A stretch of DNA of 64,000 nucleotides, from contig JAKMFW010000047.1 of assembly GCA_022425325.1 (NCBI GenBank), positions 1-64,000 of the forward strand. Direction: 5' to 3'. A model generated the notes under the pieces. The model ran no database searches. It worked only from the letters and a program-made list of their open reading frames with translations, and was not told where the DNA came from. Positions 3,685 through 62,766 of the stretch are shown one piece after another. How positions within the stretch are numbered: the stretch's first letter is position 1; each line of letters starts with the position of its first letter. The translations under genes and the position numbers were made by a program. The DNA comes from Acidimicrobiales bacterium. Its GTDB lineage: Bacteria > Actinomycetota > Acidimicrobiia > Acidimicrobiales > Aldehydirespiratoraceae.

Positions 3685-4482
3685 TCAGGACTCGGGCCGC
3701 TGATTCGGGGGGCGGGTCCGAGAGAGGAATGCGCCGGCGTCGGCGAGGATCATCTGACCGGTGATCGCCCGGGCCAGGTCGCTGGTGAGGAACACTGCCA
3801 GACGGGCGAGTTCATCGTGCTCGACGGCGTAGCGCAGCGGGGTCGATTGGGCGATCTCCGCGAAGCGCTCTTCGGTGTACGCGGCTGCGACCATCTCGGT
3901 GCGGGTGGTGCCGGGCGCCATGGCGAGCACCCGGATACCTGATGGACCGAGCTCGACCGCCATCGAGGTGACGAGGTGGTTGAGACCGGCTTTGGCCGCC
4001 GCGTAGATCGACGTGAACGGTGCCGGTCGGGTGGTCTCTCCCGACGAGACGAAGAGGATCACGCCACCGGTTTCGCTCATCGCCTCGGCCTCGGCTCGAC
4101 CGCACAGGGCGGCGAGCACCAGGTTCTGGTCAAAGATCTCGCGGTAGTCGTCGCCGCGCCCGGCCGTGAACGACTTCGGCATCCGACCCGGTGGGTACAT
4201 GCCGACGTTGTTCACCGCGATGTCGAGCCGACCGTGCCGCTCGACGATGCCCTCGACCATTGCATCGACCGAGTCGTCGTCTCGCAGGTCGGCGATGACG
4301 GCCTCCGCTGATCCACCTGCGTCGGCGATCTCGGTGACGACCGCATCGGCGTAGTCGCCCCGGATGTCGTTGACGACGACGTGTGCTCCAGCCTCCGCAA
4401 GCCATCGGGCGATCTCGCGTCCGATTCCTGCCCCGGATCCGGTGACGAGGGCGACCTTGCCGCCGTGGTCGATCGAGATCAT
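3685..4482 (-). CDS. Short-chain dehydrogenase/reductase (SDR)
   Basis: This is a 265-residue classical SDR. The NAD(P)-binding TGSGAGIG motif is near residue 14, followed by NDIRGD and a D-L-R motif, NNVG in place of NNAG, the catalytic Ser region VSSGE, and the YAAAKAG active site (Tyr and Lys). Asp in the VVVNDIRGD loop suggests NAD+ preference. Its ATG overlaps the stop of the upstream selenoprotein gene (ATGA at 4479-4482), so it is translationally coupled to it and is probably the last enzyme of the echA-DGLP1-DmdA-like-UGSC1 set. The substrate is unknown; a hydroxyl intermediate of that pathway is a reasonable inference. Confidence 0.9.
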   Translation of the reverse strand: MISIDHGGKVALVTGSGAGIGREIARWLAEAGAHVVVNDIRGDYADAVVTEIADAGGSAEAVIADLRDDDSVDAMVEGIVERHGRLDIAVNNVGMYPPGRMPKSFTAGRGDDYREIFDQNLVLAALCGRAEAEAMSETGGVILFVSSGETTRPAPFTSIYAAAKAGLNHLVTSMAVELGPSGIRVLAMAPGTTRTEMVAAAYTEERFAEIAQSTPLRYAVEHDELARLAVFLTSDLARAITGQMILADAGAFLSRTRPPNQRPES

Positions 4483-5027
4483 CGCGGCTCCGTGAGCGCA
4501 GCAATGACCGTTTCGACGACCTCGTCAGCCCATGCACGGGCGGTGTCCTCGTCGACACCACCGATCGGATGACGGGTCTCGACGATGCGGAGATCGGGCC
4601 GGTTGAGGCTTGTGGCGACCTGATCGGTGAGCCGTCGGAAGTGTTCGGTGGTGACGACGACTGTCGGGACACCCATCGCTTCCAGCTTCACGGAGTCGTG
4701 GACACTCCACGACGTGCAGCTGCCTCAATCGGCCGTGCCGGTGAGGACGATTTCCACTTCCTTGGCGATGCCCTCGAGCACTTGGTCCTCGCACGGGATC
4801 GCGGCGTTCTTGTTGTCGCGACGCACGACCTCGGTGCCCGTGCGGGCGGCGAGGCGTTCGGCGATGTGTTCGAGCACGATGTCGGCGTTGGGTTTGCGGT
4901 TGTCGAGGAGACCGATCTTCTTGCCGGCGAGCACCGGGATCGATGCAGCTCCGACGGCGGGAATCTCGCCGACGCCTCCCTCTGGTGTGTGGATCAGCAC
5001 GGCGCAACGATCCCAGCTGGGGCGCAC
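4479..5027 (-). CDS. UGSC-motif selenoprotein, copy 1 (in-frame TGA = Sec101)
   Basis: Two reading frames that look separate (5027-4725 and 4691-4479) are one continuous frame interrupted only by TGA at 4727-4725. Read as selenocysteine, the junction is TGTAD-U-GSCTSWSVHDS, the defining U-G-S-C motif of a known (seleno)protein family whose other members carry Cys. The full length is 182 residues. The N-terminal half contains GLLDNRKPNAD and the C-terminal half VPTVVVTTEHF and ETRHPIGGVDED. All of these align with the second copy at 32339. A perfect 8-bp hairpin starts 11 nt after the TGA. The start is GTG 5027, with GTG 5000 possible; neither has a strong ribosome site. The biochemical role of the family is not known to me. 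Confidence 0.9.
4695..4713 (-). promoter_or_regulatory. Candidate bacterial SECIS hairpin for UGSC1
   Basis: On the minus strand the sequence is GTCGTGGA-GTG-TCCACGAC, a perfect 8-bp stem with a 3-nt loop. It begins 12 nt after the TGA and places a loop G at +20. Bacterial SECIS elements need a stem-loop just 3' of the UGA with a G in the apical loop, about 16-37 nt away. The hairpin is inside the coding sequence, as in E. coli fdhF. Confidence 0.75.
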
Positions 5028-5090: not shown

Positions 5091-6263
5091 TCAGCTGGCC
5101 GCGAGCGACTTCTTCGGGTCGTAGAACGGCTTCTCCACGACCGTCGCCACCTTCGGGCCCAGGTTCGTCTCGATCGTCAACGCAGTGCCCACGTCGGCTG
5201 CGTCGATGCGCACCATGGCGAGGGCGATGTTCTGCGCGAGGCGGGGCGACCAGACGGCCGACGTGACCTCGCCGACGCGTTCGCCGCCGGCTGTGATCGG
5301 CCAGAACGTCGTGTTGGGACCGGTGAGCGGCTCCATCTCGATGACGATGCCGACCTGCTTACGAGTCACGCCTTCGTCGCGGATCCGACGCAGGGCGTCC
5401 TTGCCGATGAAGTCGACGTCACTGTCGACAGCGACCAGTCGGTCGAGGCCGAGCTCGAAGGGGTTCGTGTCGATGGTGGCGTCGGCGTGGTAGCTGAGCA
5501 TGGCGCCCTCGATGCGACGAATCGACGAGGTGTGACCGGGCTTGAGGCCCAGCGGTGCACCGACCGCCATGATCTTCTCCCACAGTTCGTCGCCCCGGCT
5601 GCCGTCGCGCAGATAGATCTCGTAACCGAGCTCACTCGACCAGCCGGTGCGGCTGACGACGAGTGGAATGCCGTCGAGCTCGGTCTCTCGCAGCCAGTAG
5701 TAGGCGAGCTCCTCGATCCAGTCGCCGAAGAGGGCGGTCATGATCGCACCCGATTTCGGGCCCTGCAGTTGCAGTGGTGACACGTCGGGTTCACGGATCG
5801 AGACGTCCATGCCGGCGTGGGTGGCAACACCCTGCGCCCACAGGAGGATGTCGCTGTCGGCGAGCGAGATCCAGAAGTGATCCTCGGCGAGTCGCAGGAG
5901 CACGGGATCGTTGAGCAGGCCACCCTCGGCGTTGGTGATGAGGATGTATTTGCACTGACCGACCTGCATCGTCGACAGGTCGCGGCAGGTGAGCAGCTGG
6001 GTGAAGCGGGCGGCGTCAGGGCCGGTGATCTCGACCTGGCGCTCCACGGCGACGTCGCAGAGGATCGCCTCGTTGACGAGATTCCAGAAGTTCTGCTCCG
6101 GATCCCCGAAGTCGCGAGGGATGTACATGTGGTTGTACGTGGAGAAGCCGGTGGCACCCCAGCGCACGGTGGCGTCGAAATACGGCGACTTGCGGATCTG
6201 GGTGCCGAAGCCGAAGTCGGCAGTGTCTGCCTGGCGCGGCTGGGGCGTGCCGGAGTTGGTCAT
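5091..6263 (-). CDS. DmdA-like GcvT-fold aminomethyltransferase / THF-dependent demethylase
   Basis: The 390-residue protein has the GcvT (T-protein) fold. The N-terminal signature RKSPYF...GFSTYNHMYIPRDF, then DVAVERQVEITGPDA, GQCKYI and SLADSDILLWAQG, EPDVSPLQLQGPKS and SRTGWSSELGYEIYL, follows dimethylsulfoniopropionate demethylase (DmdA) more closely than glycine-cleavage GcvT. It lacks the DmdA version of the later RSGWSKQGG stretch, so substrate identity is uncertain. DMSP, another methylated sulfur or nitrogen compound, or an O-methyl group are all possible. ATG 6263 is chosen over an upstream GTG. It sits 10 nt after DGLP1 and 63 nt before UGSC1 in a co-oriented set that also has an enoyl-CoA hydratase. 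Confidence 0.8.
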   Translation of the reverse strand: MTNSGTPQPRQADTADFGFGTQIRKSPYFDATVRWGATGFSTYNHMYIPRDFGDPEQNFWNLVNEAILCDVAVERQVEITGPDAARFTQLLTCRDLSTMQVGQCKYILITNAEGGLLNDPVLLRLAEDHFWISLADSDILLWAQGVATHAGMDVSIREPDVSPLQLQGPKSGAIMTALFGDWIEELAYYWLRETELDGIPLVVSRTGWSSELGYEIYLRDGSRGDELWEKIMAVGAPLGLKPGHTSSIRRIEGAMLSYHADATIDTNPFELGLDRLVAVDSDVDFIGKDALRRIRDEGVTRKQVGIVIEMEPLTGPNTTFWPITAGGERVGEVTSAVWSPRLAQNIALAMVRIDAADVGTALTIETNLGPKVATVVEKPFYDPKKSLAAS

Positions 6264-6273
6264 GGGTCGCAGG

Positions 6274-7329
6274 CTACGGCTCAACGGGAAGGGTGACGCT
6301 GCGGGTCATGCCCCAACTGGGGATCACCGAACTGTGCTTGCCGGCGCCACCGATGACGACCACCTTGATATTGGCGGCGGCCTCGGTCATCGGGACGAGG
6401 TCGTCGTCGCTCAGACGCTGCATCCACGGGGCCCAGGCTCGGAGCCCGAACGCCCGCTTCAGTTCACTGACCCGCATCCGGGCCTGGTTGAAGAGATAGG
6501 CGGCGACATCGTCGCGGGTCCAGCCGTCGGCGGCGCAGGCTGCGGCGTGCTCGGGACACAGGGCGACGAAGTATTCGCCCTGGCTGATCGGCGCGTTATT
6601 CTGGCCGGTGGAGGTCATCGCCGAGGCGACCTTGTCGAGGATGCGAGCGGGCTCCTCGGACTCCATGTCGTGGACGTTGTGGGGCGCCTCGCCGCAATGG
6701 ATCGTGATGGCCGACGGTGCATCGACACCGACGCTGCGTGCGTAGCCACCCCATGGCGACTCGTCGAGGTTCTCGGCGACGCAGTAGCCGTACTTCGCAG
6801 GCCCACCCTGGGTCGAGGCGTCGCCGGGCCCGGGACGGGCACCGGCGACGTGCAGCAGGATCAGGCGAAGGGCTCGCCCGACCGCAGCGTTGGCGCGGTT
6901 ACCGGGCCCGAACGCGCCGAGGCCGGCGTTGAATCCGCCCTCGACTGCGGCTTGTCCGTGCACGATCAGGAGCGGGGCGACCGGATGGGTGGTGGCGTTG
7001 ACGCCGCGAAGGTTGAGGTCGGGGTGTGCGAGCGCTCGGACGGCGGAGATGAGTACCGGCAGGTGCTCGGGTCGGCAGCCCGCCAGCACGGCGTTGATCG
7101 CGATGGTGCGGCGCGTCGCCTCGCCCGAACGAGGCGACAGCACGGCGATCACCTCGTCGGGGTCGACGGGTCTGCCGTTGACAGGAGCGAGCGCCCGGAG
7201 CATGGCGTCGACCCGTTCCGGGGTTGGTGCCTCGAGCGGCAGGCCGTCACCCCAGCCGTTGCGCTCGTAGACGTCGAGTACCGTCTCGCCGGCCTCGACG
7301 CTGACGTCGACCATCCCTGGTTCGTTCAC
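6274..7329 (-). CDS. Uncharacterised DGLP-family protein, copy 1 (UGSC partner)
   Basis: I do not recognise a named function. The 351-residue protein has GWGDGLPLEAPTPERVDAML near the N-terminus, then LAGCRPEHLPVLISA, GPGNRANAAVGRALRLIL, KYGYCVAEN, TGQNNAPISQGEYF and a terminal GGAGKHSSVIPSWG. Each block recurs in the protein at 32866-33876, so the two are paralogues. Two Cys positions (AGC and Y/F-G-x-C) are conserved between them. No signal peptide or membrane segment is visible; it looks cytosolic and enzymatic. The start is GTG 7329 (3 nt after the echA stop) or ATG 7314. Because both copies lie near a UGSC selenoprotein gene, a joint role is inferred. Confidence 0.8.
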   Translation of the reverse strand: MNEPGMVDVSVEAGETVLDVYERNGWGDGLPLEAPTPERVDAMLRALAPVNGRPVDPDEVIAVLSPRSGEATRRTIAINAVLAGCRPEHLPVLISAVRALAHPDLNLRGVNATTHPVAPLLIVHGQAAVEGGFNAGLGAFGPGNRANAAVGRALRLILLHVAGARPGPGDASTQGGPAKYGYCVAENLDESPWGGYARSVGVDAPSAITIHCGEAPHNVHDMESEEPARILDKVASAMTSTGQNNAPISQGEYFVALCPEHAAACAADGWTRDDVAAYLFNQARMRVSELKRAFGLRAWAPWMQRLSDDDLVPMTEAAANIKVVVIGGAGKHSSVIPSWGMTRSVTLPVEP

Positions 7330-25256: not shown

Positions 25257-25709
25257 ATGAGCGAGCGGACGACGCGTACCCAGATCGAGGCCAACGTCGA
25301 CGATCTCGATCCTCGGATCTGGCCCCGGGTCATCGAGCAGTTGCTGGCCGTCGGTGCCGACGATGCGTGGATCACGCCGATCGTGATGAAAAAGGGTCGT
25401 CCTGCGTTCACGCTCGGCGTGTTGTGCGACGACGGCGTCGCCGACGAGGTGCGCCGCGTCATCTTCACCGAGACCAGTTCGATCGGCCTCCGCGAGACGA
25501 TCGTGACCAAGCATGCGTTGCCGCGTTCGTTCACGTCGGTCGAGGTTGAGGGGCACCCGATCGCCATCAAACGAGCTGACTTCGACGGCACCGAGGTGAA
25601 TCGGAGCGTCGAGTGGGACGACGTCGTACGGGTGGCGGATGCCCTCGGCATGTCGGCCAACGACGTACTCATGGCTGCCCTTCAGGCCGTCCGAGAGCAG
25701 CAGGCATGA
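25257..25709 (+). CDS. larC2: LarC C-terminal domain protein (LarC2), nickel insertion
   Basis: The 150-residue protein matches the C-terminal part of LarC, the CTP-dependent nickel-inserting cyclometallase of nickel-pincer nucleotide (NPN) synthesis. The characteristic stretch is QIEANVDDLDPRIWPRVIEQ, then GADDAWITPIVMKKGRPAF. LarC C-terminal domains begin L-E-T-N-I-D-D-M-N/D-P in the same way. In Lactobacillus LarC1 and LarC2 are joined by a programmed frameshift; here LarC2 is a separate gene that opens the operon, with LarC1 at its far end. It overlaps larE by ATGA. Confidence 0.9.
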   Translation: MSERTTRTQIEANVDDLDPRIWPRVIEQLLAVGADDAWITPIVMKKGRPAFTLGVLCDDGVADEVRRVIFTETSSIGLRETIVTKHALPRSFTSVEVEGHPIAIKRADFDGTEVNRSVEWDDVVRVADALGMSANDVLMAALQAVREQQA

Positions 25710-26545
25710 ATCCCGAATCGACACGTGCGGCGATCGAACGCGTCCTCGCCGATTGCGGCCCGGTCATCGTCGCCTGCAGCGGGGGAATCGACTCGCTGCT
25801 GCTGGCGACGATCGCTCACCGCCGATCGCCATCGACAACCGTCGTCGCGCACACCGTCACCCCTGCGGTACCGGGGGAGGGCACCGGCCGAGTCGTGACG
25901 CACGCCGAGCGCCACGGTTGGACACTCGAGCTCGTTCGTTCGAATGAGTTCGAGGACGAGCGCTACCTCGCGAATCCGACCGACCGCTGTTACTTCTGCA
26001 AGACCAACCTGTACGCAGCGATCGCTCCGCTGCGCCACGCCGACATCGCACGAGCCGACGCCGTGATCGTGAGCGGTGCCAATATCGACGATCTGGGCGA
26101 GTACCGGCCCGGCCTTGATGCCGCTGCCGAGGCCGGGGTGCGACACCCGTTCGTCGAAGCCGGTGTCGGCAAGGCCGGTATTCGCGCCGTTGCCCAACAC
26201 CTCGGCATCGTCGAGGCCGATCTTCCGTCCTCGCCATGCCTGGCGAGTCGGCTCTACACCGGTACCCGTGTCACCGAGGCCCGCCTCCGTTCGGTCGAGG
26301 CCGGCGAATCGGTGCTGCGTGCCGAGGGCTTCGAGATCGTCCGCTGTCGTCGTCGAGACGCCGACGCAGTGGTCGAGCTGCCCATCGGCGACCGCGATCG
26401 AGTCACACCTGCGCTGCTCGACACCGTTCGTTCGGCGATGCAAGCCGTTGACCCTGATCTCGAGTCGTTGACCCTCGACGATCGTCCCTACCGGCCCGGC
26501 CAGGCCATCCTGCACGTCTCCGAAGGATCCCATGCACGTTCATGA
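25706..26545 (+). CDS. larE: LarE, ATP-dependent sacrificial sulfur transferase
   Basis: The 279-residue protein has the PP-loop CSGGIDSLLLATIA near residue 20 for AMP activation, a CYFCKTN region, and ADLPSSPCLASRLYTG. The Cys of PCLASR corresponds to the sacrificial Cys of L. plantarum LarE that donates sulfur and becomes dehydroalanine. The enzyme thiolates the pyridinium dinucleotide precursor of the NPN cofactor. Extra Cys (CYFC) raise the alternative of a 4Fe-4S LarE that recycles sulfur, known in some bacteria. ATG 25706 overlaps the larC2 stop. Confidence 0.92.
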   Translation: MNPESTRAAIERVLADCGPVIVACSGGIDSLLLATIAHRRSPSTTVVAHTVTPAVPGEGTGRVVTHAERHGWTLELVRSNEFEDERYLANPTDRCYFCKTNLYAAIAPLRHADIARADAVIVSGANIDDLGEYRPGLDAAAEAGVRHPFVEAGVGKAGIRAVAQHLGIVEADLPSSPCLASRLYTGTRVTEARLRSVEAGESVLRAEGFEIVRCRRRDADAVVELPIGDRDRVTPALLDTVRSAMQAVDPDLESLTLDDRPYRPGQAILHVSEGSHARS

Positions 26546-27194
26546 TGACCGACGACTCGATCGCATCGGCATGCCCGAGGCGGTGCTGTGTTCGGCAAAG
26601 TCCGATTCGCAGCTTCGGGTGATCGTCGACGAGCTCGCATCGACTGGCCACCCGACCTTGTTGACCAGGCTTCCTGCCGAGCGCCTCGGCTGCCTTTCGC
26701 CCGAGGTTGTCGAGCAGATCGACCACGACCCGATCTCCGAGACGGGCATCCTCGGCGGGATGCAGCCGGGTCGGCCGGGCACGGTCGCCATCGCCGCCGC
26801 CGGCACGTCGGATCAACGGGTTGCGACCGAGGCGGCCCGCACGCTCGAGTTCTCCGGGGTCGACGCCGAGGTGTTCGTCGACATCGGCGTCGCCGGTCTG
26901 TGGCGTCTTGAAGCCCGGCTGCCCGAGCTGCGTGCAGCCGACATCGTGATTGTCGTGGCCGGCATGGACGCGGCCTTGGTCTCAGTGATGGGTGGTCTTG
27001 TCGGCGCGCCGATCATCGGTGTGCCGACGTCGGTCGGGTACGGCGTGGCCGAAGGCGGCTCGACGGCACTCAACAGCGCCCTGGCGAGTTGTGCGCAGGG
27101 GGTGGCCGTCGTCAACATCGACAACGGCTTCGGTGCTGCGTGTGCTGCGGTTCGGATGCTGTCGCTGCTGGGCACGGACCGATCCCGCTCGTGA
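26532..27194 (+). CDS. larB: LarB, NaAD carboxylase/hydrolase
   Basis: The 220-residue protein has a short N-terminal part and a PurE-like C-terminal domain (TVAIAAAGTSDQRVATEAAR, then ADIVIVVAGMDAALVSVMGG, IIGVPTSVGYG and VVNIDNGFGAACAA). These are the LarB signatures. LarB carboxylates nicotinic acid adenine dinucleotide and hydrolyses its phosphoanhydride to start NPN synthesis. It overlaps larE by 14 nt and LarC1 by one base (TGATG), so the operon is tightly coupled. Confidence 0.93.
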   Translation: MHVHDDRRLDRIGMPEAVLCSAKSDSQLRVIVDELASTGHPTLLTRLPAERLGCLSPEVVEQIDHDPISETGILGGMQPGRPGTVAIAAAGTSDQRVATEAARTLEFSGVDAEVFVDIGVAGLWRLEARLPELRAADIVIVVAGMDAALVSVMGGLVGAPIIGVPTSVGYGVAEGGSTALNSALASCAQGVAVVNIDNGFGAACAAVRMLSLLGTDRSRS

Positions 27195-27904
27195 TGATCG
27201 GGTGGTTCGACGGTGGGGCGGGAGCGAGCGGCGACATGTTGCTCGGCGCCTTCGTCGGCGCAGGTGTGCCGCTCGAGGTGCCGTCGGCGTCGATCGGGGC
27301 ACTCGACCTCGGCGTCACGCTGCGTTCCGAGCAGGTCCAGCGAGCGGGCCTCGACGCCACCCGGATCCATGTCGAGGTGCCCGACTCCACCGTCGTGCGG
27401 CATCTCCCCGACATCCTCGAGCTTTTCGCTCAGCTCGACGCCGGGGTGCGCACCATCGCCACGGCGGTTTTCGAGCGCCTCGCCGACGCCGAAGCTCGGG
27501 TGCACGGCACCTCGATCGACGAGGTCCACTTCCACGAGGTGGGAGCACTCGACTCGATCGCCGACATCGTCGGTGCTGCCGCGTGCGTCGTTCACCTCGG
27601 GCTTGACCGGATCCACTGTTCGGCTCTGAGCCTCGGCTCGGGTTCGACCCGGGGTGCCCACGGACCCATCCCGATCCCGGCGCCCGCCGTACTCGAGGTG
27701 CTCACTGGCGTGGCCCCGATGCAGGCGGGCCCCGCCCCGTTCGAAAGCACGACACCGACCGGCGCTGCCGTGCTGGCGACGATTGTCGAAACCTGGTGTC
27801 CGATGCCGCCGATGACTGTCACGGCGGTGGGCAAGGGGGCTGGCGGACGAGACAGCGATCAGGTCGCCAACGTCTTGCGGCTTGTCCTTGGCAGCCCGGC
27901 CTGA
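27194..27904 (+). CDS. larC1: LarC N-terminal domain protein (LarC1)
   Basis: The 236-residue protein begins GWFDGGAGASGDMLLGAFV, the LarC N-terminal signature (F-D-x-x-x-G-A-S-G-D-M), and has DEVHFHEVGALDSIADIVG (metal-binding His cluster) and TPTGAAVLATIV. It holds the part of LarC that lies before the domain encoded by larC2. The protein ends naturally after GGRDSDQVANVLRLVLG, so it is not truncated by mutation. ATG 27194 is preferred to GTG 27191. No LarA lactate racemase gene follows; the next gene is a convergent TetR regulator. Confidence 0.92.
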   Translation: MIGWFDGGAGASGDMLLGAFVGAGVPLEVPSASIGALDLGVTLRSEQVQRAGLDATRIHVEVPDSTVVRHLPDILELFAQLDAGVRTIATAVFERLADAEARVHGTSIDEVHFHEVGALDSIADIVGAAACVVHLGLDRIHCSALSLGSGSTRGAHGPIPIPAPAVLEVLTGVAPMQAGPAPFESTTPTGAAVLATIVETWCPMPPMTVTAVGKGAGGRDSDQVANVLRLVLGSPA

Positions 27905-30008: not shown

Positions 30009-32321
30009 GTGAGCGACACGCCAAAGGCCTACGACGGTTTCGACGGAGAGGTCGGACGGATCTTCTCGACGTCCGAACCGTCCTGGCCGACCTTCCCGAC
30101 GGCGCCAACCGGTGCGCCCAACGTCATCGTGATGCTGGCCGACGATCTCGGGTTCGCCGACCTCGCCTGCTACGGCTCCGAGATCGACACCCCCAACCTC
30201 GACGCCCTCGCCGCCGGTGGTGTGCGCTACACCAACTTCCACGTCAATCCGATGTGCTCGCCGACCCGCGCCTCGATGCTCACCGGCCTCAACCACCACA
30301 TGGCCGGCATGGGGCACGTCGCTCACAGCGACCCCGGCTTCCCCGGCTACACCCATGAACTGCGTGACGACGCCGTCACCATGGCCGAACTGTTCCGCGA
30401 CAACGGCTGGGCCTCGCTCATGGTCGGCAAATGGCACCTGTGCAAGGACGCGCATCTCTCCGACGCCGGGCCCCGTCACAGCTGGCCGCTGCAGAAGGGC
30501 TTTGAGCGCTACTACGGCATCCTCGACGGCTTCACGAACTTCCATCAGCCGCACCGGCTGTACGAGGACAACCACCACATTCCGGTCGACCAGTACGCCG
30601 ACAACTACTACTTCACCGACGACCTCACCGATCAAGCGATCCACATGATCGACGAGGTCCGGGCATCGCATCCCACCAAACCCTTTTTCATGTACTTCGC
30701 CCACGGCGCCGTCCACGCGCCACTACAGGCGAAGGTCGACGACATCGAGAAGTACCGCGGCGTGTACGACGCCGGCTGGGACGAGATCCGTCGGCAGCGC
30801 TACGAGCGTCAACTCGAGATGGGTGTCATTCCACCTCACACCGAGCTTCCGCCCCGCAATACCGAGGCGGGGCATGCCGTCGAGGCGTGGGACAACCTCA
30901 GCGACGACGAGAAGCGAATCTTCGCCCGCTACATGGAGATCTTCGCCGGGATGGTCGACAACATCGACCAGAACCTCGGCCGGCTCCGGACCCACCTCGA
31001 GGCCATGGGGGAGTGGGACAACACGATCATCGTGTTCACCTCCGACAACGGCGGTTCGCGCGAAGGTCAGGAACTCGGCACGTCGGCGTACTTTCGCACC
31101 CTTGTCAGCCAGACCCGCCAGAACAGCCTCGACTCGGTGGATCTTGACCTGCCGAATCTCGATGCCATGGGTGGGCCGACCAACCTGCCGCACTATCCGA
31201 TGGGGTGGGCGATGGTGTCGAGCACCCCGTTCCGGCTCTACAAGATCAACACGCACCAGGGCGGGCATCAGGTGCCGTTCATCGTCCACTGGCCGGCCGG
31301 CCTTTCGGCCGCCGGTGAAGTGCGCACTCAGTACCAGCACATCACCGACCTGCTCCCGACGCTCGCCGAGCTTTGCGGGGTCGAGGTGCCGACGACCAAG
31401 GGTGGCCGTCCGGTACCCGAACCCGCCGGTGCATCGATGGTGCCGACCCTCGACGACGATGGCATTGCGACCACGCATCCCGAGCAGTACTACGAGCAGA
31501 TCGGCCACCGCGGCTTCTATCGCGACGGCTGGTCGGCGGTCACCTGCCGTCAGCCCCGTGAGCCGTTCAGCGAAGAACAGTGGGAGCTGCACAACCTTCA
31601 CGACGATCCGACGGAGACCAACGACCTTGCGGCCGAGCATCCGGAGAAGCTCAGAGAACTCCAGGACGCCTGGGAGGATGCAGCCTGGGCCAACCAGGTC
31701 TTCCCGCTCGATGAGGGCAATTACGTGAAGATGATGGCCCAGCCGCCCTGGAACGCTGAACTGGCCGAGCCCATCACCCTCCGTCCGGGCATGCCCACGG
31801 TCGAACGATGGCGTTCACTCCAGCTGATCTCCAGTCGAAGCTTCACGGTCGACATCGACGTCGATCTGGCCGACGGCGACGACGGCGTGCTCGTGGCCCA
31901 CGGCGATCAGGGCGGTGGGTACTCGCTCGCCATCGACGACGGTCGCCTGATCCACGCCCATAACGGCTACGGCGAGATGACCATCGTCGACTGCGGTCCC
32001 GTCGCCGCCGGGCGCCACACGATCACGCTCGACGTGGCCGACGTCGGTGACGTCACCTGGGAGCCGCGTGTCCTTGTCGACGGCGAACAGGTCGCCGAGG
32101 CCGGCCAGGTTCCCCGGCTGATGGCGATGGCACCGTTCGAAGGCATCGATGTCGGCATCGACCGGCGTTCACCGGTCAACTGGGAGCTCTACGAGCGCAA
32201 GGGGGTTGCCCGTTTCACCGGCACGATCCACGGGGTCACGTTCACGCCCGGCGACCTCGCCCCCGACAACGGCAGCCAGTACCTCCAGATGCTCAAGGAG
32301 ATGGGCACCAAGTACGAGTAG
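30009..32321 (+). CDS. Arylsulfatase (type I, formylglycine-dependent)
   Basis: The 770-residue enzyme has the sulfatase metal-site motif VMLADDLGFADLACYGS, the formylglycine motif MCSPTRASMLTG (C-S/T-x-P-x-R, with Cys to be oxidised to formylglycine), GKWHLCKD and VFTSDNGG. A C-terminal jelly-roll-like part of about 130 residues follows the catalytic domain. No signal peptide is visible, so it is probably cytoplasmic, and needs a formylglycine-generating enzyme that is not in this window. The start is GTG 30009; the longer open frame upstream runs through hairpin DNA. It is followed 17 nt later by the UGSC2 selenoprotein gene. Confidence 0.93.
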   Translation: MSDTPKAYDGFDGEVGRIFSTSEPSWPTFPTAPTGAPNVIVMLADDLGFADLACYGSEIDTPNLDALAAGGVRYTNFHVNPMCSPTRASMLTGLNHHMAGMGHVAHSDPGFPGYTHELRDDAVTMAELFRDNGWASLMVGKWHLCKDAHLSDAGPRHSWPLQKGFERYYGILDGFTNFHQPHRLYEDNHHIPVDQYADNYYFTDDLTDQAIHMIDEVRASHPTKPFFMYFAHGAVHAPLQAKVDDIEKYRGVYDAGWDEIRRQRYERQLEMGVIPPHTELPPRNTEAGHAVEAWDNLSDDEKRIFARYMEIFAGMVDNIDQNLGRLRTHLEAMGEWDNTIIVFTSDNGGSREGQELGTSAYFRTLVSQTRQNSLDSVDLDLPNLDAMGGPTNLPHYPMGWAMVSSTPFRLYKINTHQGGHQVPFIVHWPAGLSAAGEVRTQYQHITDLLPTLAELCGVEVPTTKGGRPVPEPAGASMVPTLDDDGIATTHPEQYYEQIGHRGFYRDGWSAVTCRQPREPFSEEQWELHNLHDDPTETNDLAAEHPEKLRELQDAWEDAAWANQVFPLDEGNYVKMMAQPPWNAELAEPITLRPGMPTVERWRSLQLISSRSFTVDIDVDLADGDDGVLVAHGDQGGGYSLAIDDGRLIHAHNGYGEMTIVDCGPVAAGRHTITLDVADVGDVTWEPRVLVDGEQVAEAGQVPRLMAMAPFEGIDVGIDRRSPVNWELYERKGVARFTGTIHGVTFTPGDLAPDNGSQYLQMLKEMGTKYE

Positions 32322-32338: not shown

Positions 32339-32866
32339 ATGGCGATCAGCTTCCTGGACCCACGTGGCGAGTCGGCCGTCGAGCCGACTCCGTATGACCT
32401 CTCCACCCGTCTCGATCCCGGCGTCACGGTCGGACTGCTCGCCAACGGCTTCCCTGGCTCCGTCGAGTTTCTCGACGCGGTCGGCGAAGCGATCACCGCA
32501 CGGCGGCCCGGCATCGAGCTTGCACGCTGGAACAAGGGCGACGCCTCGGCCATCGCCAACGACACCATGCTCGGCGAGATTGAAGCCGAGTGTGTGGCGG
32601 TGGTCGCCGCCTACGGGCATTGAGGGAGCTGCACGACCGGCACCGTGCGTGACGGCATCAACATGGCTCGTCGAGACATCCCGGCGGTCGCCCTCGTGAC
32701 CGACGAGTTCTGGGCCCAGGGTGACTTCATCGCCACCTCGTTCGGCATGCCCGACATCCCGCGGGTACAGCTCCCGCACCCCGTGGCGGGCACCGGGACC
32801 GACAACCATCGCCTGGTCGCCGAGAAGATCGCCGCTGAGCTTGTCGCTGCACTCGAGGATTCGTGA
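32339..32866 (+). CDS. UGSC-motif selenoprotein, copy 2 (in-frame TGA = Sec95)
   Basis: The frame from ATG 32339 meets a TGA at 32621-32623 and continues in the same frame to 32866. Read through, the junction is AAYGH-U-GSCTTGTVRDG, again the U-G-S-C motif. The 175-residue product aligns with copy 1: GLLANGFPGS versus GLLDNRKPNA, IPAVALVTDEFW versus VPTVVVTTEHF, QLPHPVAGTG versus ETRHPIGGVD. A conventional annotation would call a short ORF and a fragment. The SECIS hairpin is less obvious than in copy 1. Its final TGA overlaps the DGLP2 ATG, a strong sign of a functional pair. Confidence 0.88.
32631..32655 (+). promoter_or_regulatory. Candidate SECIS region for UGSC2
   Basis: Two alternative hairpins follow the TGA: GCACG/CGTGC (5 bp, 8-nt loop with central GG, 32631-32648), and CCGT/ACGG (4 bp, loop GCGTG with G at +24, 32643-32655). 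Either meets the distance rule for bacterial SECIS elements, but both are modest. Folding calculations would be needed to choose. Confidence 0.35.
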
Positions 32867-33876
32867 TGGCCGCCCTGCTCACTGCCGACGATGAGGCCGC
32901 CGCCCTCGAACAGCTCCACGAACTCGGCTGTACCGACGGCCTCCCCGTCGTCGTCCCCACGCCCGAGCGGGTCGAGCGCATGGTGCTCGCCGTTGGTCAC
33001 CCGGCCGAGACCGCACTCGGCGAGATGGGGCCGCTCCAGGGGGTGTGCACGGTCGAGAAGCTCGCAGCGGCGGCCGTCATGGCCGGGTGCCTGCCCGACC
33101 ACATGCCGATCGTCGTGGCGTCGGCCCTGGCGATGATGGACCCGGCATTCGATCTGGCCGAGATGCAGGGCACGACCCACGCCACTGCGCCGCTGATCAT
33201 CGTCAACGGGCCGGCCCGTGCGATGTGCGGCGTCGCCTCGGGATACGGCGCCCTCGGCCCCGGCCACCGTGCCAATGCGTCGATCGGGCGGACGATCCGA
33301 TTGGCGATGATCAACATCGGCGGGGCCCGACCCGGCACGTCCGACATGGCCCTGCTCGGTCACGGCGGCAAGTTCGGACAGTGCCTCGGGGAGGACGAAG
33401 CGCACAGCCCGTTCGCACCGCTCCACACGAGCCGAGGCTTCGCCGCCGAGGACTCGGCCGTCACGGTTATCGGCACGGAGCCGCCACAGTCGGTGGCGCA
33501 CGTTGCCGGAAGTGACGTCAAGCGATCGAGCGAACGTCTCATCGACCTCCTGGCGGCATCGGTCGCCGGCGTCGGTTCGAACAACGCCTGGCTGGGCGGT
33601 GGGCAGGCCGTGATCGTACTGACGCCCGACCACATCGGGGAACTGGCCGAGGCCGGCCACGATCGATCATCGACGACCGCGGCGATCGGCGAACGGGCGA
33701 CGACGCGCGACGGTCGGCCTGCGTTCGAGTCGGCCGACGACGTCCTGCTCGTCGCCGCCGGTGGATCCGGGCTCTACAGCTATGTCTTCCCGACCTGGTG
33801 TGCAGGGGCGAACCGCAACCGGGCCGTCACCCGTCCGATCGACATCGGCCAGGCCTGCGCCATTCCCGAGCGCTGA
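32866..33876 (+). CDS. Uncharacterised DGLP-family protein, copy 2 (UGSC partner)
   Basis: The 336-residue protein is a paralogue of 6274-7329. Shared blocks in order are CTDGLPVVVPTPERVERMV, VMAGCLPDHMPIVVAS, GPGHRANASIGRTIRLAM, GGKFGQCLGED, GVGSNNAWLGGGQAV and GGSGLYSYVFPTWC. Conserved Cys in AGC and FGQC suggest thiol chemistry. ATG 32866 overlaps the UGSC2 stop by one base (GTG 32863 is also possible), so the two proteins are made together. The catalytic role is unknown; a partner or substrate for the selenoprotein is inferred. It is convergent with the WS/DGAT gene. Confidence 0.8.
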   Translation: MAALLTADDEAAALEQLHELGCTDGLPVVVPTPERVERMVLAVGHPAETALGEMGPLQGVCTVEKLAAAAVMAGCLPDHMPIVVASALAMMDPAFDLAEMQGTTHATAPLIIVNGPARAMCGVASGYGALGPGHRANASIGRTIRLAMINIGGARPGTSDMALLGHGGKFGQCLGEDEAHSPFAPLHTSRGFAAEDSAVTVIGTEPPQSVAHVAGSDVKRSSERLIDLLAASVAGVGSNNAWLGGGQAVIVLTPDHIGELAEAGHDRSSTTAAIGERATTRDGRPAFESADDVLLVAAGGSGLYSYVFPTWCAGANRNRAVTRPIDIGQACAIPER

Positions 33877-61498: not shown

Positions 61499-62766
61499 TG
61501 CAGCGAATCGCCGGCGTGCTCAGTGCCGCCCTGCTCTTCGTCGCAGGCGTGGCGATCTTCAACGCCACCCGGTCCGATCCTGAGCCTGCCACCGATGTCG
61601 AGGCCACCGCCGAGATCACGCCTGCGACGACGTCGACCACCACGACGAGCACCACCACAACCACCACGACGACCACGACCCTGCCTCCTCCTCGAAGCGC
61701 CCGCCTCGCCTTCACGGGCGACCTCTTGCCGCACGGCTCGGTCCAACGGGCCGGTACTGCGTTCGTCGCCGAGGGGTGGGATTTCGCGCCGCTCTACGAA
61801 GAGGTCCGGCCGATCATCGAGGGCGCCGACCTCGCGATCTGTCATCTCGAGACCCCCATATCCATCGATGACACCAACCTGAGCGGGTACCCGCTGTTCA
61901 GCGCCCCGAGGGCATTCGCCCAGGCGGCACTCGACGTCGGATATGACGGTTGCTCCCTCGCCTCCAACCACAGTTACGACCGTGGCGCGCAGGGTGCGCT
62001 CGACACGATCACCGTGCTGCAGGAGATCGGCCTGCCCTACGCCGGTCAGGCGGCCAGCGTCGAGGAGGATCTTGCGCCGGTGCTCTACGACGCGAACGGC
62101 ATCACGATCGCCCACATCTCGGCCACCTATTCGCTCAACGGCTTCGTGATGCCGTCGGACCGGCAGTACCTGGTCGACCTGATCGAGCCGGAGGCGATCC
62201 TGCAAGAGGCCCGGATCGCGAAGGACTCGGGCGCCGAGTTCGTGATCGTGTCGATGCACTGGGGTGCGGAATATCGCCACGAGCCGATCTCCTCGCAGAA
62301 CGAATGGCTCGAAGCGACGCTGCCCAGCGAGTACGTCAATCTGATCATCGGCCATCACGCCCACGTCGTGCAGCCCGTCGACAAGGTCGGCGATGAATGG
62401 GTGGTGTTCGGGCTCGGGAACTTCCTGTCGAACCAGTCGGCGAACTGCTGCGTTGCCGCCAGCCAGGACGGCATGATCGCCACCGTCGAACTCTTGGAGA
62501 ACGACGCCGGCGAGATCGAGGCCGTCGGCGTGCACTACATCCCGACCTGGGTCGACCGAGGCGACGGCTACATCATCCGGGTGGCCGACCCTGCCCGCGC
62601 CGACCTCCCGACGTCGACCATCGATCAGATGGGGATCACGTTCGATCGAACGTTCGACGTCGTCAGCAGCCGCCTCAGCGAGGCTGATGGACTCACGATC
62701 GGTCTGGGGCTCGCCCCAGGCGAGCCGTCGGTCATTGCGTCCGTTGTGCCAGCAGGCGACGGATGA
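61495..62766 (+). CDS. CapA-family metallophosphatase-like lipid/surface protein
   Basis: The 423-residue protein has one N-terminal membrane segment (VLSAALLFVAGVAIF), a low-complexity Thr-rich linker (residues about 40-65) and a CapA/PgsA domain. That domain has LAFTGDLLPHGSVQ (D-x-x-x-H-like metal site), CHLETPISIDD, SLASNHSYDRGAQGALDTI, VIVSMHWGAEYRHEP, IIGHHAHVVQPVDKV and VFGLGNFLSNQ. Related proteins take part in poly-gamma-glutamate capsule synthesis, but many CapA homologues in actinobacteria have other, unknown envelope roles. ATG 61495 overlaps the previous stop. It overlaps the convergent acyl-CoA dehydrogenase gene by 35 nt. Confidence 0.9.
   Translation: MMQRIAGVLSAALLFVAGVAIFNATRSDPEPATDVEATAEITPATTSTTTTSTTTTTTTTTTLPPPRSARLAFTGDLLPHGSVQRAGTAFVAEGWDFAPLYEEVRPIIEGADLAICHLETPISIDDTNLSGYPLFSAPRAFAQAALDVGYDGCSLASNHSYDRGAQGALDTITVLQEIGLPYAGQAASVEEDLAPVLYDANGITIAHISATYSLNGFVMPSDRQYLVDLIEPEAILQEARIAKDSGAEFVIVSMHWGAEYRHEPISSQNEWLEATLPSEYVNLIIGHHAHVVQPVDKVGDEWVVFGLGNFLSNQSANCCVAASQDGMIATVELLENDAGEIEAVGVHYIPTWVDRGDGYIIRVADPARADLPTSTIDQMGITFDRTFDVVSSRLSEADGLTIGLGLAPGEPSVIASVVPAGDG

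Follow-up and report, generated by a model that had tools for sequence, protein, structure and literature searches.

Within a 64,000-nucleotide stretch of an Acidimicrobiales genome (hereafter the window), the initial annotation proposed that a gene interrupted by an in-frame TGA encodes a selenoprotein with a U-G-S-C motif. This locus raises two questions: whether the TGA of the gene (UGSC2) is read as selenocysteine (Sec), and what its product does together with that of the following gene, the DGLP protein. The literature on UGSC selenoproteins goes back at least to 2008 (PMC2398784; reviewed in PMC9312934 and PMC13188914), and PMC5330540 cites a UGSC case in which tRNA-Sec has the anticodon CUA. 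The relevant features are collected in Table 1.

Table 1. Features of the UGSC and DGLP loci in the window and elsewhere in the genome
Feature	Position	Strand	Remarks
UGSC-family selenoprotein gene, copy 2 (UGSC2)	32339..32866	+	175 aa, Sec at residue 95 (TGA=U translation)
Sec-encoding TGA of UGSC2	32621..32623	+	homologous position: TGA in 75 genes, Cys codon in 5
TGC codon, Cys98 of UxxC motif	32630..32632	+	Cys in 90% or more of 76 homologues; proposed resolving cysteine
SECIS hairpin of UGSC2	32637..32655	+	CCG-G-CAC-CGUGC-GUG-A-CGG, apical loop 20 nt after TGA
DGLP protein copy 2 (DGLP2)	32866..33876	+	336 aa, near-obligate UGSC partner, no named family
Sulfatase directly upstream of UGSC2	30009..32321	+	PF00884, E = 2e-54
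UGSC1 (copy 1)	4479..5027	-	PF24696, 154 bits (genome search); start codon not certain
Sec-encoding TGA of UGSC1	4725..4727	-	single in-frame TGA
SECIS hairpin of UGSC1	4695..4713	-	GUCGUGG-AGUGU-CCACGAC; -12.5 kcal/mol, z = -4
GcvT/DmdA-like gene between DGLP1 and UGSC1	5091..6284	-	NF009133 DMSP demethylase, 379 bits (cut-off 410)
DGLP protein copy 1 (DGLP1)	6274..7314	-	34% identity to DGLP2; included in one alignment with the three other copies
UGSC copy 3 (L002)	C78:65289-65789, just outside the window		TGA; adjoins DGLP with thioredoxin-like CPTC domain
UGSC copy 4 (L004)	C85:3574-5211	-	UGSC-DGLP fusion, one frame through TGA

The UGSC2 gene and its paralogues

When the TGA is read as Sec, U95 lies within ...AAYGHUGSCTTGTVRDG..., and the U-G-S-C motif is encoded by TGA-GGG-AGC-TGC at 32621-32632. 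The translation matched PF24696 'UGSC family' with 147.4 bits (cut-off 25, E = 5.8e-43) over residues 6-173 of 175, which bears out the read-through frame that had been proposed. NF041046 also gave a full-length match, at 96.2 bits under the NCBIfam equivalog cut-off of 125, and by this model UGSC2 is a divergent subfamily. The real stop codon of UGSC2 (TGA, 32864-32866) overlaps the ATG of DGLP2 (32866-32868) by one base, as had been noted. Homologues that end at the internal TGA would have spoken against read-through; in L025, whose DGLP is 94% identical, the UGSC frame continues intact beyond the TGA and the downstream part is conserved: of 80 codons, 10 differ synonymously and 8 non-synonymously between the two genes.

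A search of the whole genome, a fragmented assembly of 2.6 Mb in 102 contigs, revealed four UGSC genes, each of which contains one in-frame TGA, always at the same site. Among them is the paralogue on the minus strand of the window (UGSC1) that the initial annotation had reported; its argument that two paralogues with TGA at the same motif position make a sequencing error very unlikely was right and even understated. In the DGLP tree, the copies occupy separate, deeply diverging branches, with copy 2 in a set of 16 rows from Actinomycetota and Pseudomonadota. The four UGSC/DGLP pairs are old, divergent paralogues that probably act on different substrates.

Selenocysteine machinery and codon distribution

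The genome carries a tRNA-Sec (64 bits against a gathering score of 47) with the anticodon UCA (tca in ARAGORN), adjacent genes for SelA (371 bits) and SelB (288 bits), both over their cut-offs, and SelD, also over its cut-off. The SelD gene (L150, C101:10129-11055, minus strand) has an in-frame TGA of its own, and this selenophosphate synthetase is likely itself a selenoprotein.

We searched 84,980 species genomes for DGLP and obtained 80 loci, among which the rate of UGSC is conditional on DGLP. In the related loci and the genome under study, the codon at the Sec site of UGSC was TGA in 75 cases, Cys in five, and another codon in one. A UGSC homologue at L055:1173-1709 has CAG (Gln) at the Sec/Cys site and is possibly decayed or non-catalytic. 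SelA was above the cut-off in 32 of 35 tested TGA-form genomes and in none of the five Cys-form genomes (Fisher p ~8.5e-5, computed by hand with kinship ignored, as the genome counts ignore phylogeny). The three TGA-form genomes without SelA were L049, which is small (1.9 Mb), L061, where only a SelA fragment was found at a contig edge, and L095. A codon that turns up as Cys precisely in genomes lacking SelA is difficult to account for except as Sec, and this comparison of the copies with their Cys homologues favors the Sec reading.

We also searched for the hairpin that would direct recoding. Because the 45 nt after the UGSC2 TGA, folded alone, were uninformative (z = 0.19; -13.3 kcal/mol in another fold), we turned to comparative tests. 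Synonymous changes are entirely absent from codons +5 to +10 after the TGA in 19 clade-A genes of Actinomycetota and Pseudomonadota (GGC ACC GTG CGT GAC in all), whereas the flanking codons vary freely, and at pair 18-34 of the hairpin a C-G pair is replaced by a compensating U-A pair. The hairpin of the other sequences lies two bases earlier, and a single register for both types was rejected since the two need registers two bases apart. Across 50 non-clade-A sequences, the five inner pairs are intact in 97% of cells, 20 double changes were observed against 3.6 expected after shuffling, and the covariation score (0.28 against 0.07) exceeds that of every slid register. The Cys forms L041 and L043 have lost the conserved codons after the TGA position. 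The apical loops are CGUGC in copy 2 and, 18 nt past the UGA, AGUGU in copy 1; the hairpins conform to the published bSECIS model (PMC13188914) in loop size, G position, and spacing. The short hairpin of UGSC2, at -6.0 kcal/mol, is weaker than the minimum free energy cut-off of -7.5 kcal/mol in that model (PMC13188914), and the hairpin of UGSC1 has -12.5 kcal/mol. The evidence for a SECIS element in copy 2 comes from comparative constraint and covariation; judged across homologues, the hairpin behaves as a SECIS element should. On these comparative grounds, the TGA of UGSC2 encodes selenocysteine through SECIS-directed UGA recoding, and the assignment as a selenoprotein is supported by family membership, the Sec machinery, the covarying hairpin, and the restriction of Cys forms to genomes without SelA.

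DGLP as the partner of UGSC

The AlphaFold2 model of DGLP2 has a mean pLDDT of 94.6. None of 83 DGLP members tested matched a Pfam or NCBIfam family, and no relative was found in the PDB by sequence or fold. All four UGSC copies in this genome have a DGLP: overlapping in copy 2, separated by the GcvT/DmdA-like gene in copy 1, adjoining in copy 3, and fused in copy 4. Of 71 UGSC/DGLP pairs, 67 lie within 300 nt of each other on one strand, with a median gap of 82 nt over all 71, and the two protein trees mirror each other (Spearman 0.715 over these pairs; at most 0.14 in 500 permutations). A sample of 150 genomes of the phylum served as an unbiased test of co-occurrence: the identical 11 genomes carry UGSC and DGLP, and none has only one of them. 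In addition, a thioredoxin-like CxxC domain is fused to DGLP in this genome and in six relatives; at the copy 3 locus (L002, C78:65289-66793) it is the CPTC domain at the N-terminus of DGLP. No UGSC was seen at 11 of the 80 DGLP loci, including five from Poribacteria, although some of the 11 may be contig ends. DGLP is thus a near-obligate partner of UGSC, and from synteny, fusion, and co-occurrence together we strongly infer that the two are halves of one enzyme. The initial annotation had coupled UGSC2 to DGLP, and the support is far stronger than the window could reveal; it did not mention that the family was known and proposed no mechanism. Because of the one-base overlap and the conserved synteny, a single transcript over 32339-33876 is very likely.

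Two groups of DGLP sequences deserve separate mention. Poribacteria contain shorter DGLP-like matches (L068, L069, L078, L098, and L102) with no detectable UGSC gene nearby, where the DGLP fold perhaps has a different role. Among the loci of the Chloroflexi assembly JACPQD and relatives (L093, L055, L075, L080, L086, L090, and L100), one assembly has many DGLP copies on several contigs, and L093 contains a tandem array of three genes each for UGSC and DGLP.

The genes around the pairs were also inspected. The sulfatase upstream of UGSC2 was rejected as part of the unit because no relatives other than the two closest (L025 and L026) share it, and neighbor-family enrichment found no substrate gene common to the UGSC/DGLP loci. 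Loosely recurring neighbors, whose families were mostly named by eye, include Bug/TctC-type receptors, CaiB-type CoA transferases, dehydrogenases, and hydratases; they suggest carboxylate or CoA metabolism and no single pathway. The DmdA-like gene in the copy 1 cluster is a lead to methylated sulfur or nitrogen compounds there. A scan for promoters and terminators stayed at chance level, and Rfam found only an ordinary tRNA in the window. At 25257-27904 on the plus strand, the window also contains the nickel-pincer cofactor genes LarC2-LarE-LarB-LarC1, in which LarC is split into two genes (LarC2 and LarC1) at opposite ends of the cluster.

Predicted fold of UGSC and probable kinship to GrdB/PrdB

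The AlphaFold2 model of UGSC2 (mean pLDDT 95.6) is a single alpha/beta Rossmann-like domain in which strand E87-93 is followed by Sec95, just before helix H96-111. Foldseek gave generic Rossmann/flavodoxin-like matches only, with TM up to ~0.55. The model contradicts the thioredoxin-like fold proposed in the 2008 description (PMC2398784), and we rejected that fold for UGSC in favor of a Rossmann/flavodoxin-like one.

UGSC was compared with protein B of glycine/betaine/sarcosine reductase (GrdB) and with PrdB of D-proline reductase. Against a GrdB-like profile built from a narrow set, UGSC scored a probability of 56%; against 29 GrdB/PrdB-like sequences, hhalign gave 92-96% (E 5e-7 to 3.5e-9) with Sec placed on Sec. 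In controls, 30 column-shuffled profiles gave at most 0.8% and the reversed profile 0.6%, and with every Cys masked the probability was 89.7%. With 92-96% against at most 0.8% in the shuffled and reversed controls, profile comparison indicates that UGSC is most likely related to the GrdB/PrdB Sec domain (PF07355/TIGR04483) and stands alone as a protein. The likeness extends over the UxxC Sec domain, the next helix, and a GIPTV-like strand, and both systems have a two-component layout and a link to thioredoxin. However, GrdB has ~430 aa and UGSC 175 aa, and the match covers only the C-terminal Sec domain of GrdB. UGSC proteins gave no direct match to PF07355. In glycine reductase, the partner is the pyruvoyl protein GrdE, whereas DGLP is unrelated to it: profile comparison with a GrdE-like alignment gave 0.6-0.9%, and DGLP was rejected as a GrdE relative. 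With neither a direct PF07355 match nor a GrdE-like partner, UGSC was rejected as a glycine reductase. The genome separately encodes a GrdB/PrdB-like selenoprotein with an in-frame TGA (L105, contig C30 near 61743-62105, minus strand; ...VVLLTPVUPLCTRTV...).

Proposed two-component enzyme and alternative readings

UGSC is a true selenoprotein, and we consider it rather probable that it forms one half of a two-component enzyme with DGLP, in which a GrdB-type Sec domain carries out a two-electron reduction and is restored by thioredoxin. In the proposed reaction, DGLP would bind a small substrate and present it to UGSC, whose selenolate, at the start of the helix that follows the beta strand, would attack it. 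Cys98 would then resolve the selenolate-substrate adduct, and thioredoxin, or the fused thioredoxin-like domain, would reduce the Se-S bond and restore the selenol. Most likely, this net two-electron reduction would cleave a carbon-heteroatom bond in a small compound of the carboxylate type, by analogy to GrdB and PrdB, for which such reductive cleavage is the outcome (PMC13188914). Because DGLP is not akin to GrdE, the chemistry of the substrate may be different.

An unlikely but serious alternative is that UGSC is a general thiol/selenol redox protein, such as a thioredoxin-type peroxide or disulfide reductase, with DGLP as an accessory. Its UxxC motif, the fold suggested in 2008 (PMC2398784), and the recurrent thioredoxin-like fusion to DGLP would suit such a role, but the confident Rossmann-like model and the kinship to GrdB/PrdB argue against it, and the strict pairing and several divergent copies per genome better fit substrate-specific enzymes. 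We regard as improbable the reverse assignment, in which the main catalyst is DGLP, for example as a lyase or as a hydrolase with a distant likeness to cyclic-amide hydrolases, and the role of UGSC is only to regenerate or protect it. DGLP does have seven invariant and many nearly invariant positions, and Foldseek repeatedly matched it to cyclic amide hydrolases; however, these matches (TM ~0.2, probability at most 0.54) are no better than noise and too weak to rely on, and DGLP without UGSC is the exception. That the TGA marks a normal stop, arose from a sequencing error, or reflects damage in a pseudogene, as the standard gene caller that stops UGSC2 at 94 aa and the NCBIfam score under the cut-off might suggest, can be practically dismissed in view of the same TGA in four copies and most related loci, the conserved downstream part, the SECIS constraint, and the correlation with SelA. 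UGSC probably acts as the catalytic half of a reductase that has two components and is fed by thioredoxin.

Relation to known systems and significance

The UGSC family itself (PF24696/NF041046) is known, and UGSC2 shares with it the sequence family, the U-G-S-C motif, and Sec or Cys at the same site; what looks new is its neighbor DGLP. The available portions of the published accounts of the family describe neither a conserved partner nor a link to GrdB, and we found no report of either in the literature searched, which covered few subscription journals. In the Global Ocean Sampling study of 2008, UGSC was found fused to an 'Unknown_1' domain (PMC2398784), much as copy 4 is fused to a conserved domain; Unknown_1 may be DGLP, and a conserved pairing is not reported in the portion of that paper available to us. 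The SAO and Tso selenoprotein operons are similar in that their biochemistry is unexplained, but the review, in its available part, places UGSC in neither, and we compared them by description only (PMC13188914).

UGSC/DGLP pairs occur in Actinomycetota, Pseudomonadota, Chloroflexota, Rokubacteria, other phyla, and, in the Cys form, a haloarchaeon; Natrialba asiatica is a culturable carrier of the Cys form. Whether UGSC and DGLP constitute an undescribed class of selenium-dependent two-component reductases, in which the GrdB Sec domain works with a new substrate-binding subunit that has no structural match, spread over phyla in several substrate-specific versions, we judge to be evenly balanced. 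The expansion of DGLP in one Chloroflexi assembly would be worth a search for substrates. Since gene callers truncate UGSC genes at the TGA, and since no family model was found for DGLP, both halves of the pair are easily missed or mis-annotated. The near-obligate partner and the link to GrdB now provide a concrete, testable hypothesis for UGSC.
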